The notes under the pieces were generated by a model. The model made no database searches. It was not told where the DNA came from and saw nothing but the letters and a program-made list of their open reading frames with translations. From assembly GCA_944325245.1 (NCBI GenBank), contig CALUZM010000003.1:1-64000 (forward strand): a DNA stretch of 64,000 nt, read 5' to 3'. This document shows, one piece after another, positions 32,737 through 40,933 of this stretch. How positions within the stretch are numbered: position 1 is the stretch's first letter; the number at the start of each line of letters is the position of its first letter. This DNA is from an uncultured Massilimicrobiota sp. Lineage in GTDB: Bacteria > Bacillota_I > Bacilli_A > Erysipelotrichales > Coprobacillaceae. The position numbers and the translations under genes are program-made.

Positions 32737-32770
32737 AAAAAAAGACCATTAGATTTCATTTCTAATAGTC
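32737..32770 (-). terminator. Terminator of the histidine operon
   Basis: Ten-bp stem GACTATTAGA / TCTAATGGTC with one G-U pair and a 7-base loop, followed by TTTTTTT on the minus strand. The stem includes the hisIE stop codon. Confidence 0.9.
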
Positions 32771-33406
32771 TCCTCGTTGATGAAAAGTTTTTTTATTGCC
32801 ACTGATTTGATGTCTTTCTTCCAATTTTCTTTCAATATCCTCAACCTGGACACCTTGTTGATACATTAAAACCAGTACATGATAAAACAAATCACTAATT
32901 TCACCAATCAATTCTTCCTTATTATTATTTTTGGCAGCGATAATTGTTTCACTCGCTTCTTCTCCAACTTTTTTACATATCTTATCAACACCCTGATCCA
33001 ATAAATAATTGGTATAAGACTTTTCTACAGGGTGCAGCTTGCGATCGGCAATGACATCATAAACTTCATGAAAAATAGTCTTTGAAAAATCATAAGGTAT
33101 GACTTCATTAAAGAAACATGAATAAGCCCCTGTATGGCAAGCTGCTCCTACTTGTTCTACGATAATCAGCAATGTATCTTCATCACAGTCTAAATACATC
33201 CCTTGAATATATTGGAAATGTCCTGAAGTTTCCCCTTTATGCCATAACTGCTTACGTGAACGAGAATAAAAATATGTTTCTCCACTCTCCAACATTTTTT
33301 CATAAGCTTCCTCATTGACATAAGCCAGCATTAAAACATCTTTGGTCTGAAAATCCTGCACAATGGCAGGAACCAATCCATTACCCTTTTCAAAATCTGG
33401 TCTCAT
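32762..33406 (-). CDS. hisIE: Bifunctional phosphoribosyl-AMP cyclohydrolase / phosphoribosyl-ATP pyrophosphatase
   Basis: The 214-residue fusion catalyses steps two and three of histidine synthesis. The N-terminal HisI domain shows [26 protein letters not shown] and the zinc/metal segment DCDEDTLL with GAACHTG; the C-terminal HisE helical domain (from about residue 110) has [15 protein letters not shown] and [13 protein letters not shown]. The start at 33406 follows GGAGG and overlaps the hisF stop; a longer in-frame reading lacks a ribosome site. Confidence 0.96.
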
Positions 33407-34170
33407 AAATTCCTCCTTACTGGAATATGATGTTGGGCACATAATGCCTTAACATCATCAATCGTTGCTTCCTGATAATGAAACAAAGAAGCAGCTAACG
33501 CTCCATCACAATTTGTTTTTTCAAAGACTTCAACAATATCTTCTTTATCACCACAGCCTCCACTGGCAATCACAGGAATCGAAACAACATCCAAGACAGC
33601 ATTAAGCATCTCAATATCAAAACCATCACGTGTGCCATCTTTATCCATGGAAGTTAATAAGATTTCCCCAGCACCTAACTGCTCACATTGTTGAACCCAC
33701 TTTAATAAATCAATACCTGTGTTCTTACGACCACCGGCAATATAAACATCATATCCATCATCATCTTTTCTTTTTTTCGCATCTACAGCGACAACAACAC
33801 ACTGCACACCAAATTCATCAGCAGCCTGTTTAATCAAACCAGGATGCTGTATCGCTGCTGAATTAATAGAAACTTTATCTGCTCCACTGGATAATATCAT
33901 ACGAAAATCATCCAAACTGCGAATACCACCACCAACAGTTAATGGAATCGATAATTCACTGGCAGCTCTTTGAATCAAATCTTTGATAATATCACGATTT
34001 TCATAAGTCGCTGTAATATCTAAAAAAACCACTTCATCAGCACATTGCTGATCATATCTTTTGGCTATTTCAATAGGATCCCCTACATCTTTTAAGCCTT
34101 CAAAATTGACCCCTTTGACAACTTTACCATCTTTAATATCTAAACAGGGGATGATTCTTTTGGCAAGCAT
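33403..34170 (-). CDS. hisF: Imidazole glycerol phosphate synthase, cyclase subunit
   Basis: The 255-residue TIM barrel has the catalytic Asp of [23 protein letters not shown] and [13 protein letters not shown]. With HisH it turns PRFAR and glutamine-derived ammonia into IGP and AICAR. Its start overlaps hisA by 31 bases, with GAGGTG upstream. Confidence 0.97.
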
Positions 34171-34877
34171 GATATCACCTCTTTTAAATTGATTTTGCCT
34201 TCATAGTACGCTTTTCCCACAATACAACCCTCATATCCTTGACGTGCTGCTTCATAAATATCCTCGGCATCTTTGACACCACCTGAAACAATGCAGCGCA
34301 AAGAACTCTCCTGCTGAATTTTCTGATAAATATCAAATGAAGGTCCCTGTAATGTGCCATCTTTGGAAATATCGGTACAAACAATATAGACAATACCCAT
34401 CTTTTCTAATTCCTTAATAAAGTCCAAATAATAGGTCTGAGTATTGACCAGCCAGCCCCCCGTAGAGACATAACCATCTTTGATATCCATACCGACAACA
34501 ATACGCTTTTCACCATAACGTTCAAGAGCATTTTTTAAAAATTCTGGATTCTCAATCGCTGCTGTTCCTAAAATCACACGGTCAATACCTATTCTATCCA
34601 AATAAAGTTCAACAGTCTCCATATCACGAATTCCACCACCAACTTCTATAGGAATACTAATCGTCTCACGAATTTTTTTGATTGTTGTTAGATTACCTGT
34701 CTGTCCTTGTTTGGCTCCATCTAAATCCACAACATGAAGATATTGAGCACCCATCTTTTCAAACTCTAAAGCTAAGTTTTCAGGATGAGAAGAATAAACT
34801 GTTTTTTGTTGATAATCTCCTTTATACAGGCGCACTGCCTGTCCATCTTTTAAATCAATTGCTGGTATGACAATCAT
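34140..34877 (-). CDS. hisA: ProFAR isomerase
   Basis: The 245-residue TIM barrel isomerises ProFAR to PRFAR. It has [27 protein letters not shown] and [14 protein letters not shown], the HisA versions of the paired catalytic aspartates. Overlaps with both hisH (four bases) and hisF (31 bases) show tight coupling. Confidence 0.97.
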
Positions 34878-35479
34878 TGAACCATCTCCTTAAACGCTAA
34901 TAAAATTTTCTGCCCAATGGCACCACTTTTTTCAGGATGAAATTGACATCCCATGACATGATCTTTAGCCACAATCGCTGTAATCTTTTGATCACCATAC
35001 TCACAATAAGCGACTAACTCATCATCAGAAGGAAAAGCCATGTAAGAATGAACAAAATATACATAGTCTCCCTCTTTTATATTTTGAATTAATGGATGTT
35101 TTTTAACAAACATTAATTCATTCCACCCCATATGAGGAATTTTTTCTGATACATTCATGAGTTTGACTTCACCTTTTAAAAATCTCAGTCCCTGTGTTTC
35201 TTGAACTTCATAGCCTTTTTCAAAAAGAATCTGCATTCCTAAACATATACCTAAAATAGGAATACCCGCTTCTTTTCTTTCCTGAAGAACATCAATCAAC
35301 TGATACTTTATCAGATTTTCCATCGCTACTGGAAAAGTGCCTACACCCGGTAAAACAATACCTTTTGCCTGACGAATCACCTCAATATCACGACTGACAA
35401 CAGCTTCTACGCCAATTCTTAAAAAGGCATTTTGCACACTCATTAAATTCCCGACATTATAATCTACAATCACAATCAT
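34874..35479 (-). CDS. hisH: Imidazole glycerol phosphate synthase, glutaminase subunit
   Basis: The 201-residue class I glutamine amidotransferase has the nucleophile GICLGMQILFE and the His/Glu pair in GCQFHPEKSG. It feeds ammonia to HisF. The start at 35479 is six bases after AGGAGGG; the ATG two codons upstream touches the ribosome site. Confidence 0.96.
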   Translation of the reverse strand: MIVIVDYNVGNLMSVQNAFLRIGVEAVVSRDIEVIRQAKGIVLPGVGTFPVAMENLIKYQLIDVLQERKEAGIPILGICLGMQILFEKGYEVQETQGLRFLKGEVKLMNVSEKIPHMGWNELMFVKKHPLIQNIKEGDYVYFVHSYMAFPSDDELVAYCEYGDQKITAIVAKDHVMGCQFHPEKSGAIGQKILLAFKEMVQ

Positions 35480-35490
35480 ACTCATCCCTC

Positions 35491-36078
35491 CTACAATAAA
35501 CCTTTAGAAGACACAATCTGATCTTGATGATTTTCATCAATCATGACTGCCTGTTTTAATGCTCTAGCAAAACTTTTAAACATAGCCTCAATGATATGAT
35601 GTGTATTTTCACCATAATTTTCGATAATATGCAAAGTCATCAAAGCATGATCGCTCACTGCCTTAAAAAATTCCTTTGTCATTTCTGTCTCATAATTGCC
35701 TAGTCGTTCACAATGCAACTGCGCCTGATAAACCAGATAAGGGCGACCACTTAAATCTAATGTTGTTGTGACTAAAGCTTCATCCATAGGAATGGCCATT
35801 TGACCATAGCGATAAATCCCTTTTTTATCTCCTAACGCTTCTTTTAAACATTCACCAAAAACAATACCTAAATCCTCAACAGTATGATGACTATCAACTT
35901 TTAAATCACCTTGACATTGAACAGACAAATCAAAGCCTCCATGAAAAGCTAACAGTTCCAACATATGGTCCATAAAACCAATCCCTGTTTCAATGTGTGC
36001 CTGTCCTTGACCATCAAGATTTAAAGACATTTTTATATCTGTTTCATTCGTTTGACGTTTGATTTCACTCTTTCTCAT
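35491..36078 (-). CDS. hisB: Imidazoleglycerol-phosphate dehydratase
   Basis: The 195-residue monofunctional dehydratase has the manganese-binding histidine motifs HHTVEDLG and DHALMTLHI-type region plus ENTHHIIEAMFKSFARAL. It lacks the N-terminal phosphatase of the enterobacterial fusion, so histidinol-phosphate phosphatase must be elsewhere. It overlaps hisD by 14 bases. Confidence 0.96.
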   Translation of the reverse strand: MRKSEIKRQTNETDIKMSLNLDGQGQAHIETGIGFMDHMLELLAFHGGFDLSVQCQGDLKVDSHHTVEDLGIVFGECLKEALGDKKGIYRYGQMAIPMDEALVTTTLDLSGRPYLVYQAQLHCERLGNYETEMTKEFFKAVSDHALMTLHIIENYGENTHHIIEAMFKSFARALKQAVMIDENHQDQIVSSKGLL

Positions 36079-37378
36079 AAGTTTCCTCCTTAAATCTCAC
36101 TGCAATACTATTGGCATGAGCATCTAATCCTTCTTTTTTGGCAAATGTCATCACATCATCCTTAAAAGTTGCCAAAACATTTTGAGGATAATAACTGTAA
36201 GATGAATATTTCACAAAATCATAAACACCTAAGGCACTATAAAATTTAGCTGTGCCTCCAGTTGGTAAAACATGATTTGTGCCAGACATATAATCACCTA
36301 AAGGCTCAGGTGTATATTCTCCTAAAAAGATAGATCCTGCATTATGAATAAGAGGTAAAGTGTTCATCGGATTATCAACCAGCACCTCTAAATGCTCTGG
36401 CGCAAATTCGTTAGAAACCTGAAAAGCTTCTTCAATGGAATCAACAATAAATGCTCCACCATAGTTTTCTAAAGAATCTTGAATAATATCCGCACGAGAT
36501 AAATATTGAATCTGTTTTTCCAGCTCCAAATTAACTGCTTCTACCAGTGATTTTGATGTTGTAACCAACAAAGCACTGGCTAAACGATCATGTTCAGCCT
36601 GACTCATTAAGTCAGCTGCAATATATGCTGGATTCGCCTTTTCATCAGCAATAATTAACACTTCACTTGGCCCTGCAATCATATCAATATCCACTTGCCC
36701 ATAACAGCATTTTTTAGCTGTCGCAACATAAATATTTCCTGGACCTACAATCTTATCCACTTTAGGAACGGTATGCGTTCCTAAAGCCACTGCGGCAACA
36801 CCCTGTGCACCTCCAACCTTATAAATTTTATCAATACCACAAACATAAGCTGCAGCTAAAATCGCTGGATTGACTTTCCCATCAGCTTTCACTGGTGTAA
36901 TAATCATCAAATTTTGAACACCTGCTAATTGGGCAGGAATGGCATTCATCATGACCGTTGATGGATAAGTGGCTGTTCCTCCTGGAACATATAATGCAAC
37001 ATTTTTTAAACCACGGGCAATTTGTCCCATGATGACTCCATTGTCTTTATATATCGACCATGATTGACTGACTTGATGTTGATGAAAATCAATCAGCTGT
37101 TCCTTGGTACGTTCGAGAATTCTTATAAAATCTTTTCCTACACTTGTCACACCATCTAATATTTCCTGTTTAGAAACAATGAACTGACGAGGATCATCAA
37201 TCATAAATCCATCAAATTGTTGACAATATTTCATTAAGGCCTGATCCCCATTTTTCGCGACATTATCAATAATATCTAAAACTGCATCATTAACCTGCTT
37301 GGAAATTTCTGTCTTTCGTGATGAAAATTTCTTGACAACATCCTTGAATTGTCCCTGTAAATCATACGTTTTTAACAT
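36065..37378 (-). CDS. hisD: Histidinol dehydrogenase
   Basis: The 437-residue zinc enzyme performs the last two oxidations to histidine. Motifs include [46 protein letters not shown] and the C-terminal [14 protein letters not shown]. It overlaps hisG by seven bases and has an AGGAGG site. Confidence 0.97.
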
Positions 37379-37998
37379 GTTTCTTCCTCCTTTAACATCT
37401 CTATTAAATGAAATATCTCGTCTTTTTTAAATTTTAAACTCACTTTATTCACTATCATTTTAGTTGAAACATCACTGATTTTCTCAATAACTTCCAATCC
37501 ATTCGCTTTTAATGTTGAACCTGTTTCCACAATATCCACAATGGCATCACTCAAACCAACAACAGGGCCTAATTCCACAGAACCTTCCAATTTAATGATT
37601 TCAACATCTTCCTGTTTTCTGGTGAAATAATCTTTTGCGACTTTGGTATATTTAGAAGCAATACGCTGACGACGATGGAAAACTTTCTCACGATATTCAG
37701 GATATGCCGCAACCGCAAAATAACATTTCCCAATATTCAAATCGAGCATTTCATAATAATCATGAAAATCACTATCTTCTAATGTATCTTTGCCAACAAA
37801 TCCCACATCAACAATACCATGTTCCAAAAAAGTCAAAACATCATTGGCTTTCGCAAAAACCATCGATAAACCATCAGCTGTCTCAATCAGTAATTCACGA
37901 TCTTTATGCAAAACAGGCTCCATATCATATCCTTTTTGAGAAAGCAGCTGACACACCTGTTTTTCAATACGACCTTTGGTAATAGCAATTTTAATCAT
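37372..37998 (-). CDS. hisG: ATP phosphoribosyltransferase, short catalytic subunit
   Basis: The 208-residue HisG-S form catalyses the first committed step of histidine synthesis. It has [21 protein letters not shown] and the PRPP-loop-like [16 protein letters not shown]. The short form lacks the C-terminal regulatory domain and needs HisZ, which is encoded immediately upstream with a four-base overlap. Confidence 0.96.
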
Positions 37999-38957
37999 AC
38001 CTCTTCCTCCTTTTCTAATGCCTTTAAGATATGACTTAAATCATAACTAAATCCAATAGCAGAAACCTGTCTATGGAAATGATTCATCAGTTGATCATAT
38101 CGTCCACCATTCATAATCGGTTCTGCACTATAAGGAGAATACCCTTTTAACATAATACCTGTATAATATTTCATCATCGGTGTCATAGCCAAATCAAATG
38201 TCAGACAATCTTTCATACAGGATGCTTCATATAAATGAATCAATTCTGCAATCGATTCATTTAAGATATCATCATGAATCAGATTCTGTATCTGATATAA
38301 AACCTCAACCCCTCCAAAAGTCTGTGGCAAATGCATCAATAAATTTTGCATTGACGTATCAAAAGAATGCTCTTGAACGAAATCTTTCATAGCTGTTAAA
38401 TCACGTCTTTTTAAGATATCCACAAAGCGTTCATCATCAACAATTTCACATAAACGATGATAGAACTTAGCAGATCCCATTTCTATACGAATCGTTTTTA
38501 ATTTTAAACATGACATTGTTTCTTTGATTAGCTGAAGACATTCTAAATCTCCTGCAACACCCGCTTTTCCCAGCAGTTCTACACCTGCCTGAAAAAATTC
38601 ACTGCTACGCCCTTTATGTCTTTTTTCCTTACGATAAACCTTTCCAAAATAACAATATCTCTTCTCTCCCTCTTCTTTTTGTGAGCAGTAAAGCCTTGCG
38701 AGAGGAACAGTAAAGTCTACTCTTAAAGCCACTCTCTTGCCTTCATAATTCATATATTGAAACATCTTTTCCTCATCAATACCTATATCCATATCGTTAT
38801 ACAAATCTACATATTCAAAAGATGGCATCAACACTTCCAAATACTGATGTTCCACAAAAATTCTTCTCAAATCATTTTCTATTTCTCTAAGCTTAGAAAC
38901 ATTACTCATAATAGCGTCAATACTTTCTTCTGGTATCAGATATTTAAATTCTTCCAT
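37995..38957 (-). CDS. hisZ: ATP phosphoribosyltransferase regulatory subunit
   Basis: The 320-residue class II aminoacyl-tRNA-synthetase-like protein matches HisZ: a HisRS-type core with [20 protein letters not shown]-like [12 protein letters not shown] and the late GGRYDQLM, but too short and without an anticodon domain. It binds HisG-S and gives histidine feedback control. The ATG at 38957 lies after AAAGGGGG. It is the first structural gene after the attenuator. Confidence 0.95.
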
Positions 38958-38974: not shown

Positions 38975-39002
38975 AAAAAAAGACGAGTCTTAATGACTCG
39001 TC
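38975..39002 (-). terminator. Attenuator terminator of the histidine operon
   Basis: A perfect 8-bp GC-rich stem (GACGAGTC / GACTCGTC) with a 5-base loop is followed by TTTTTTT on the minus strand, 18 bases before hisZ. It lies between the his leader peptide and the first structural gene. Confidence 0.92.
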
Positions 39003-39079
39003 ACTATCTATAAGTCATTAGATACACCCATTGATAAAATATATGCAAAATGGGCTGTATCTTTACACAGATATAACCC
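38991..39079 (-). promoter_or_regulatory. Competing RNA helices of the his attenuator
   Basis: Four pairings compete on the minus strand. Helix A:B pairs 39069-39079 with 39052-39062 (GGGTTATATCT / AGATACAGCCC, one mismatch). Helix B:C pairs 39049-39062 with 39020-39032 (13 bp, one bulge). The antiterminator pairs 39013-39020 with 38991-38998 (TAATGACT / AGTCATTA). The latter shares bases with the terminator stem at 38982-39002. The A arm begins one base past the leader-peptide stop, so ribosome position can choose between structures. Confidence 0.8.
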
Positions 39080-39136
39080 TTAAGTGTTCCAATGATGATG
39101 GCGATGAAATTGTACGTTTAAAATTGTCTTTTTCAT
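39080..39136 (-). CDS. hisL: Histidine operon leader peptide
   Basis: An 18-codon reading frame encodes MKKTILNVQFHRHHHWNT. Four of five consecutive codons at 39092-39106 are histidine (CAT-CGC-CAT-CAT-CAT). GAGGTG lies about eight bases before the ATG. It precedes competing hairpins and a terminator ahead of hisZ, the layout of ribosome-mediated attenuation known from enterobacterial his operons: stalling on His codons when charged tRNA-His is scarce would favour readthrough. Confidence 0.9.
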   Translation of the reverse strand: MKKTILNVQFHRHHHWNT

Positions 39137-39180: not shown

Positions 39181-39210
39181 AAAAAAAGAATTTTTTAAAA
39201 ATTCTTTTTT
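39181..39210 (-). terminator. Terminator after the DUF89/membrane protein operon
   Basis: An AT-rich hairpin (AAAGAATTT / AAATTCTTT core) followed by TTTTTTT on the minus strand. It overlaps the stop codon at 39209. The his promoter must lie within the next 45 bases; TAAAAT about 20 bases before the leader ATG is the only -10 candidate and its -35 box is unclear. Confidence 0.7.
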
Positions 39211-40933
39211 ACCATGCATTTTCCACAACCTGATGCCCTTCAATACGATAAAGATATTCCGTTGTTTGACGTGTTTCATAGGGTTCATTATCTGTCCTTC
39301 CTGTTGCAGGCATAAAACGTACACTATAAAATCTGGTTCCAACATAATCCTGATTTTGTTTTCTCATTAAAATAACATCTTCTACAGTCTGTGATTCTGC
39401 CACTGAAGAATCAATACGCTTTGTGATGTAAATTCCATACTGATTATCATTTTGAGAAGAGATAGTCATACTCAAAATCTGTACATCTAAAATAACACCT
39501 TCACTATTATCAATACGTGTTATTTCCTGATCAATGGCTTTAATAATCTGGTAAATATCATCCTGATTATCATGAACTTTCACCAAATTTTCATTTGACT
39601 TAACACTTGATAAATCATCAAGTTCAAGCATATCATTATAAGCTTGATAACGTTGCTGATCTTTCTCTTCTTCATCATATTGAAGAGATTCCGACAAAAG
39701 TTCTTCCTGCGAAGATTCGGTTGTTTCCTGTTGTTGAGATTCCGTTTCTACTTCCTCATCATCTTGTTCATCTTCGAAAAGATTCTGATTTAGATTTAAG
39801 GTTCTCTGATATGACATATCTAACTGATAGACTTCACACTCGTTATAATCCAAACTGATTAAATAATCATGAAATTCAGTTTGAATATACAAAACATGAT
39901 TCCCAACCAAAGAGACTTCACATGCTTCCTGATTCATGAACACTTTATGTTGATCAATCACAACATTCATCCATAGACTACCATATGCATGATGCTCTTG
40001 ATTATTCAACAATGTATTGATATCCTGTGTTATCTTATCAATAGCATAAAAATCATAAGTCTGGTCATGAGCAACATAAAATACATTCTCAAACACACCC
40101 ACTCTTTGCACGTTATCTGTTTCAATTTGAGCAATCTGCTGACCAAACAGGTAACGAACATTTTGATAAAGAGAGACACGATCATCTTCAATACGATAAG
40201 CCAGTTCATGCCCCTGATATGTCAAATGATCTAATCTACCTAATGGTAAAATCATCAAAATTGCCACAATGACGCAAGCTATCATATAAATAATGAAATC
40301 ATATTTTTTAATCATATAAACAAGTCCAATACTTATCATCACAATGAATAAAATACCAAATTCTATCCATAAACCATTCCCATCAATCAGATATGTAGAG
40401 GCAAACAGACAATAAAGAATTCCCGCAATCAGTTTAAAAATAATAGTACAAGCAATAATCACCAAAATCATAAGCAAACTCAAAGTGATTCTTCGTTTTG
40501 GAGTTAAAGAAATATCAACAACTTGTGAACATAATGTTCGAAAATAATTGAGAGCATCTTCATCACATTCCAAAAACAAGACATAATCTTCAAAAACAGC
40601 AATGATAACATGTTGATTATATTGAACTCTTATTAATGATTTCAAATCAAAAATACGATTTTGATAAAAAAAACGATGATTTTCATCTGTAATGACAAGA
40701 TCACTACTGATAGTTTGTGTCAATCCCTGTTCTTTTCGTCTTTGTCTCATAACAATCATTTCCAGACAAAGAACAAGAATTGCCAAAACGATGCTAATAG
40801 AAGGCACTTTAAAAACCAAGCATGTTATAGCTAAACAGCACCCTAAACACATTATCAATATCATAATGAGAGATATGATATTTTTCCTTCGAAAAGATAC
40901 ATTATCCAACATTTTTTGAATATGTAGTTCCAT
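39209..40933 (-). CDS. Uncharacterised membrane protein with acidic low-complexity linker
   Basis: A 574-residue protein I do not recognise. Two hydrophobic segments lie at about 18-60, three to four more at about 148-235; then a soluble domain, an acidic Gln/Glu/Ser-rich stretch at about 390-440, and a C-terminal beta-rich segment. No catalytic motif is visible. It starts after GGAGGGGGG and follows the DUF89 gene by 24 bases, so the two are probably co-transcribed. Confidence 0.7.
   Translation of the reverse strand: MELHIQKMLDNVSFRRKNIISLIMILIMCLGCCLAITCLVFKVPSISIVLAILVLCLEMIVMRQRRKEQGLTQTISSDLVITDENHRFFYQNRIFDLKSLIRVQYNQHVIIAVFEDYVLFLECDEDALNYFRTLCSQVVDISLTPKRRITLSLLMILVIIACTIIFKLIAGILYCLFASTYLIDGNGLWIEFGILFIVMISIGLVYMIKKYDFIIYMIACVIVAILMILPLGRLDHLTYQGHELAYRIEDDRVSLYQNVRYLFGQQIAQIETDNVQRVGVFENVFYVAHDQTYDFYAIDKITQDINTLLNNQEHHAYGSLWMNVVIDQHKVFMNQEACEVSLVGNHVLYIQTEFHDYLISLDYNECEVYQLDMSYQRTLNLNQNLFEDEQDDEEVETESQQQETTESSQEELLSESLQYDEEEKDQQRYQAYNDMLELDDLSSVKSNENLVKVHDNQDDIYQIIKAIDQEITRIDNSEGVILDVQILSMTISSQNDNQYGIYITKRIDSSVAESQTVEDVILMRKQNQDYVGTRFYSVRFMPATGRTDNEPYETRQTTEYLYRIEGHQVVENAW

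Follow-up and report, generated by a model that had tools for sequence, protein, structure and literature searches.

The enterobacterial his leader is a row of hairpins. Among Firmicutes, ribosome-mediated attenuation has experimental support for the Rli60 ilv-leu attenuator of Listeria (PMC5864092) and for the ilv attenuator of Staphylococcus aureus, which has a leucine-rich peptide (PMC5794164), and Bacillus has been described as carrying His leader peptides ahead of hisZ and of a paralogue of hisS (Naville & Gautheret 2010, PMC2965389). Closest to the present case is the study of Ashniev et al. (2022, PMC9413887), in which Firmicute his operons without HisR and T-boxes were searched for attenuators. 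Candidate His attenuators were listed there for the Bacillus cereus group, for Peptostreptococcaceae and Lutispora within Eubacteriales, and for six species of Erysipelotrichales under the names Eggerthia, Erysipelatoclostridium, Catenibacterium, Coprobacillus and [Clostridium], genera of the family studied here included.

The element analysed here precedes hisZ in a 64,000-nucleotide stretch of DNA from an uncultured Massilimicrobiota sp., a gut Firmicute (the window is this whole stretch), and the features described below all lie on its minus strand. As described in PMC9413887, the attenuators of Ashniev et al. share with it the order and the family, a His-rich leader peptide with 3-5 consecutive His codons, a his operon preceded by attenuator, antiterminator and terminator, and the lack of a T-box at that place. 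The two are almost certainly the same element, compared by description and not base by base; as far as can be told, the genus of the window is not on the list. An exact-pattern search recovered Eggerthia, Thomasclavelia (formerly Erysipelatoclostridium) and [Clostridium] spiroforme, matching the list. The first-pass annotation had regarded a his leader peptide as unusual for this lineage, a claim that did not hold, His attenuators having already been predicted in Erysipelotrichales according to the same paper. Since this kind of switch was predicted in the lineage in 2022, the novelty is limited; what is added here, relative to that description, is a co-varying protector helix, coevolution tests, a promoter motif and a census showing one copy per genome in this family only.

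The Bacillus leader resembles the present one in that, again in a Firmicute, a leader peptide with His codons and a terminator stand ahead of hisZ, but it belongs to a different lineage, and the likeness is one of description. The Listeria and S. aureus ilv systems likewise represent ribosome-mediated attenuation of amino-acid synthesis in Firmicutes, but concern branched-chain amino acids, other genes and other leader peptides. With the enterobacterial leader (RF00514) the locus has in common a leader frame with His codons and a chain of alternative helices whose last member is a terminator, and it would operate in a like manner; unlike that leader, it has no Rfam match, and its protector helix (0:C, see below) encloses a nested hairpin (A:B).

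Leader frame, promoter and his operon

The leader peptide hisL (MKKTILNVQFHRHHHWNT) is encoded by an 18-codon frame at 39136-39080, stop codon TAA, preceded by the Shine-Dalgarno (SD) sequence GAGGTG at 39148-39143, so that the His-rich frame with a ribosome site reported in the first-pass annotation was found as claimed. Judging from its sequence, this short frame is equipped for translation and carries consecutive codons for the amino acid made by the pathway. When the 64 kb window was scanned, hisL was the only small SD-bearing frame with four His in five codons, and no second convincing leader peptide was found in it; 30 first-order random windows contained no such frame with an SD and 25 without one. 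The folding energy of the leader was below that of shuffled sequences (z = -3.4).

An extended -10 promoter (TATGTTAAAAT, 39169-39159) of the TRTGNTANNNT type lies upstream, and the motif is found 20-23 nt upstream of the leader SD in 34 of 34 aligned loci (see below); from its position, the transcript should start just ahead of the leader ribosome site. Downstream of the frame, an intrinsic terminator with stem GACGAGUC/GACUCGUC at 39002-38982 and a U-tract reaching 38975 sits between hisL and hisZ, and was the one terminator found in its 600 bases (0.2 expected). It had been placed 18 bases before hisZ; the terminator is indeed present, and the gap to the hisZ ATG is 17 nt.

The first regulated gene, hisZ (37995-38957, ATG at 38957), scored 233.8 bits with TIGR00443, below the cut-off of 271.65, yet this was its best match. 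It is followed by hisG-hisD-hisB-hisH-hisA-hisF-hisIE (32762-37998, assigned with NCBIfam models), with tight spacing or overlaps, giving an operon hisZ-G-D-B-H-A-F-IE that is complete save for hisC.

Conservation of the leader was assessed in relatives fetched with HisZ, from which 34 regions upstream of hisZ were aligned. The element was present in all 34, and 33 kept four or five His codons in a row (or HRHHH), as expected from the earlier reading; the SD was kept in nearly all relatives. The choice between CAT and CAC differed among relatives with His unchanged, the N-terminal half of the peptide was variable, and the His run was followed by Trp in the majority of genera and by Arg in the rest.

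Alternative helices and their covariation

Six segments of the leader RNA take part in pairing. Segment 0 (39095-39081), the protector strand, consists of the final nucleotide of one His codon, the last His codon, the Trp-Asn-Thr codons and the TA of the stop codon, and pairs with C. Segment A (GGGUUAUAUC, 39079-39070) lies immediately 3' of the stop codon and pairs with B (GAUACAGCCC followed by a conserved AUUUUG, 39061-39046), which can have either A or C as its partner. Segment C (UGGGUGUAUCUAAUGAC, 39030-39014) pairs through its 5' part with B, through its 3' part (CUAAUGAC) with D and over its whole length with 0. Segment D (GACGAGUCAUUA, 39002-38991) is both the 3' strand of the antiterminator C:D and the 5' arm of the terminator D:E, which is completed by segment E (GACUCGUC and the U-tract, 38989-38975).

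Helices 0:C, C:D and D:E are mutually exclusive through the common segments C and D, and all three co-vary; together they make up the textbook chain of protector (1:2), antiterminator (2:3) and terminator (3:4). Within this chain sits a nested module, in which hairpin A:B, starting at the stop codon, lies inside the protector loop and B alternatively pairs with the 5' part of C. The four helices that had been listed by eye (A:B, B:C, antiterminator and terminator) all exist, so the order of segments given for them stands in that respect, but the protector 0:C had been left out, and B:C does not simply compete with the antiterminator, since it lies end to end with C:D (without overlap) instead of excluding it. 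Stacked on each other, B:C and C:D may make up a composite antiterminator; alternatively, B:C may relay the position of the ribosome. The AUUUUG at 39051-39046, which forms the tail of B directly after A:B, is kept in most relatives and is not needed for A:B; it resembles a pause signal for polymerase or a weak terminator.

Pair counts made on the alignment of the 34 loci (alignment A1) gave 95% of cells paired for D:E (4 pairs with compensatory changes), 96% for C:D (2 pairs with compensatory changes) and 97% for B:C (1 pair with double changes), which bears out the covariation expected of the helices. For A:B, 99.3% of cells were paired with no double changes, and since its sequence is nearly invariant this helix is unproven by covariation. 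The protector 0:C was paired in 84.7% of cells, compared with 30-45% in slid controls, and showed double changes at 5 pairs, along with 20 other pair types.

A swap test set the energy of pairing between segments of the same sequence against that of pairing with segments from distant relatives, using a permutation that ignores relatedness. For 0:C, own segments gave -12.2 kcal/mol and swapped segments -10.2 kcal/mol, with 0 of 2000 permutations as good, and the own partner was better, with P no higher than 0.0005, for each of the helices 0:C, A:B, B:C, C:D and D:E. No own-partner advantage was seen for 0:B, B:D and 0:D, which served as controls, and these null controls argue against a general bias in the test. 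In one relative (L027), segment C has been rewritten, and both 0:C and B:C have been rebuilt with other bases. Judged by these comparisons, the five predicted helices co-vary or co-evolve.

Proposed mechanism and alternative explanations

The attenuation reading rests on the frame, the promoter motif, conservation, co-varying helices, the single copy and the position before hisZ. We hold with high confidence that the leader controls the his operon by ribosome-mediated transcription attenuation, a reading already proposed for it and well supported by the conserved His frame, the co-varying helices and the absence of a T-box; beyond this, it is stalling, the direction of the response, the timing and the exact role of A:B and B:C that we infer. 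With transcription under way from the extended -10 promoter, a ribosome would load on the leader frame. With charged tRNA-His plentiful, the ribosome would complete the leader and depart, exposing strand 0, which would pair with C as the protector (A:B nested inside) and keep C from D, and the D:E terminator would then halt transcription ahead of hisZ. With charged tRNA-His scarce, the ribosome would stall on the His run, hiding strand 0 and leaving C free to pair with the emerging D as the antiterminator, probably stacked on B:C, so that no terminator would form and the operon would be transcribed. The his genes would thus very probably be read only when histidine is short. The protector strand consists of the last His codons and what follows, matching the footprint expected of a ribosome stalled on the His run, and A:B/B:C would be a candidate RNA-polymerase pause hairpin, a relay of ribosome position, or both.

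The switch was not reproduced when the 34 sequences were folded at equilibrium (partition function) with a ribosome mask placed on the first or last His codon or on the stop codon, so that the earlier proposal to see it by folding with and without masking of the His codons was not borne out. In full-length folds, the terminator was dominant in nearly every mask state and the mask hardly mattered. Before E was made, a stalled ribosome raised C:D in 17-18 of the 34 sequences and lowered it in 8-9 (a small mean gain), and mean C:D was highest with the ribosome at the stop codon (6.7 C:D pairs). Since a ribosome that paused at the stop codon would hide both 0 and A, which by these folds promotes C:D as well, the model needs prompt release of the ribosome. 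Either the switching decision is kinetic or the energy model is too crude, and since equilibrium masks fail to give the switch, its direction is one that we infer.

Two ways of wiring the nested module within ribosome-mediated attenuation were considered. It is tentatively suggested that the locus is a nested variant of the classical attenuator, confined to a single Firmicute family, whose protector is the coding strand itself and whose stop-codon hairpin A:B, with the conserved AUUUUG after it, pauses RNA polymerase and relays the position of the ribosome to C via B, so that attenuation would work where polymerase may outrun the ribosome. Polymerase is reported to be ahead of the ribosome in Bacillus subtilis (Johnson et al. 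2020, as cited in PMC7858274); leader-peptide attenuation requires timing between the two, and an attenuator present throughout a family offers a ready test of this timing in a Firmicute. In the other wiring, which we rate as possible though doubtful, an A:B/B:C relay would replace direct coverage of C: a ribosome at the stop codon would cover A and free B, B:C would take C from D, and termination would occur with the ribosome bound. Since segment A starts at the stop codon, it alone would be covered by a ribosome in that position, and B:C is conserved, having been rebuilt with other bases in L026 as well as in L027; however, B:C stops where C:D starts, and in the stop-codon state C:D stayed formed alongside B:C at the mean given above, so that a block of C:D by B:C is not obvious.

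It is very unlikely that a small molecule, tRNA or protein acts on the RNA (as a T-box, riboswitch or target of a binding protein) and that the His-rich frame is a mere bystander. In favour of this, some stretches of A, B and C are conserved beyond the needs of pairing (invariant columns), but a search of the leader against Rfam gave no T-box (RF00230), riboswitch or other family at threshold, in line with the first-pass reading, and the proteobacterial his leader (RF00514) gave no match in it either at the gathering threshold or at E up to 10. Further against a ligand are the His run, retained through synonymous changes in 33 of 34 relatives, the covariation of the coding strand itself with C, and the reported absence of HisR from all 20 Erysipelotrichales genomes studied by Ashniev et al. 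(2022, PMC9413887). A plain terminator next to a spurious short frame, with no translation-based regulation, is scarcely credible, for although in nearly all folding states no helix was more stable than the terminator, the frame, SD, promoter motif and alternative helices are conserved family-wide and the random windows held no SD-bearing His frame.

Distribution among relatives and T-boxes

A covariance model of the element gave one good match in the window's own genome (the next match had an E-value of about 1) and exactly one copy in 39 of 43 genomes of the family. In the four genomes without a match, hisZ was absent (G005, G013 and G016) or cut by the contig start (G063). Searches of the class and phylum (approximately 395 genomes) gave only near-chance matches outside the family, three of them with E-values of 0.001-0.009, and these three loci matched no Rfam family either. 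The exact pattern, searched over 84,980 genomes, was found at 26 loci, and these, as far as names tell, all belong to organisms of Coprobacillaceae type, including Faecalibacillus, Longibaculum, Massilimicrobiota, Kandleria and Beduini in addition to Thomasclavelia and Eggerthia. Re-use of the scaffold for other genes or amino acids was also considered, and was rejected on the basis of one good match in the window's own genome and one per family genome.

T-boxes occupy the same place before hisZ in five genomes of a sister family. They share with the attenuator the gene, the place and presumably the signal (charging of tRNA-His), but differ in that the RNA reads uncharged tRNA directly, with no ribosome. 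The window's own genome contains 19 T-box matches, 18 of them over the cut-off, and one (G000:C50:13083-13266, locus L124) lies just upstream of hisS; with a T-box at hisS and the attenuator at hisZ, there are therefore two different devices for histidine genes in one cell. Within one order, the device before hisZ has thus been swapped, with a T-box in the sister family and a leader peptide here, while the T-box of hisS has been retained.

Variant loci and the upstream flank

The exception among the 34 aligned regions is L013 (G018), whose leader has only two His (HRH) and has lost the usual stop codon (read-through), with the helices mostly retained; natural decay or an altered sensitivity is possible. 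In a close relative (G004, loci L024 and L035), the leader is intact and hisZ is broken by in-frame stops or a frameshift (giving two overlapping matches), which may reflect a sequencing error or a decaying operon.

The gene upstream of the leader (39209-40933) encodes a 574-aa protein with several hydrophobic stretches, probably membrane-spanning, for which no NCBIfam match was found. Between this gene and the leader, an inverted repeat (AAAGAATTTTT/AAAAATTCTTT) followed by T's at 39205-39170 overlaps the -35 region of the leader promoter and is probably the terminator of the upstream gene. Similar inverted repeats are present at the same spot upstream of the leader promoter in several relatives.
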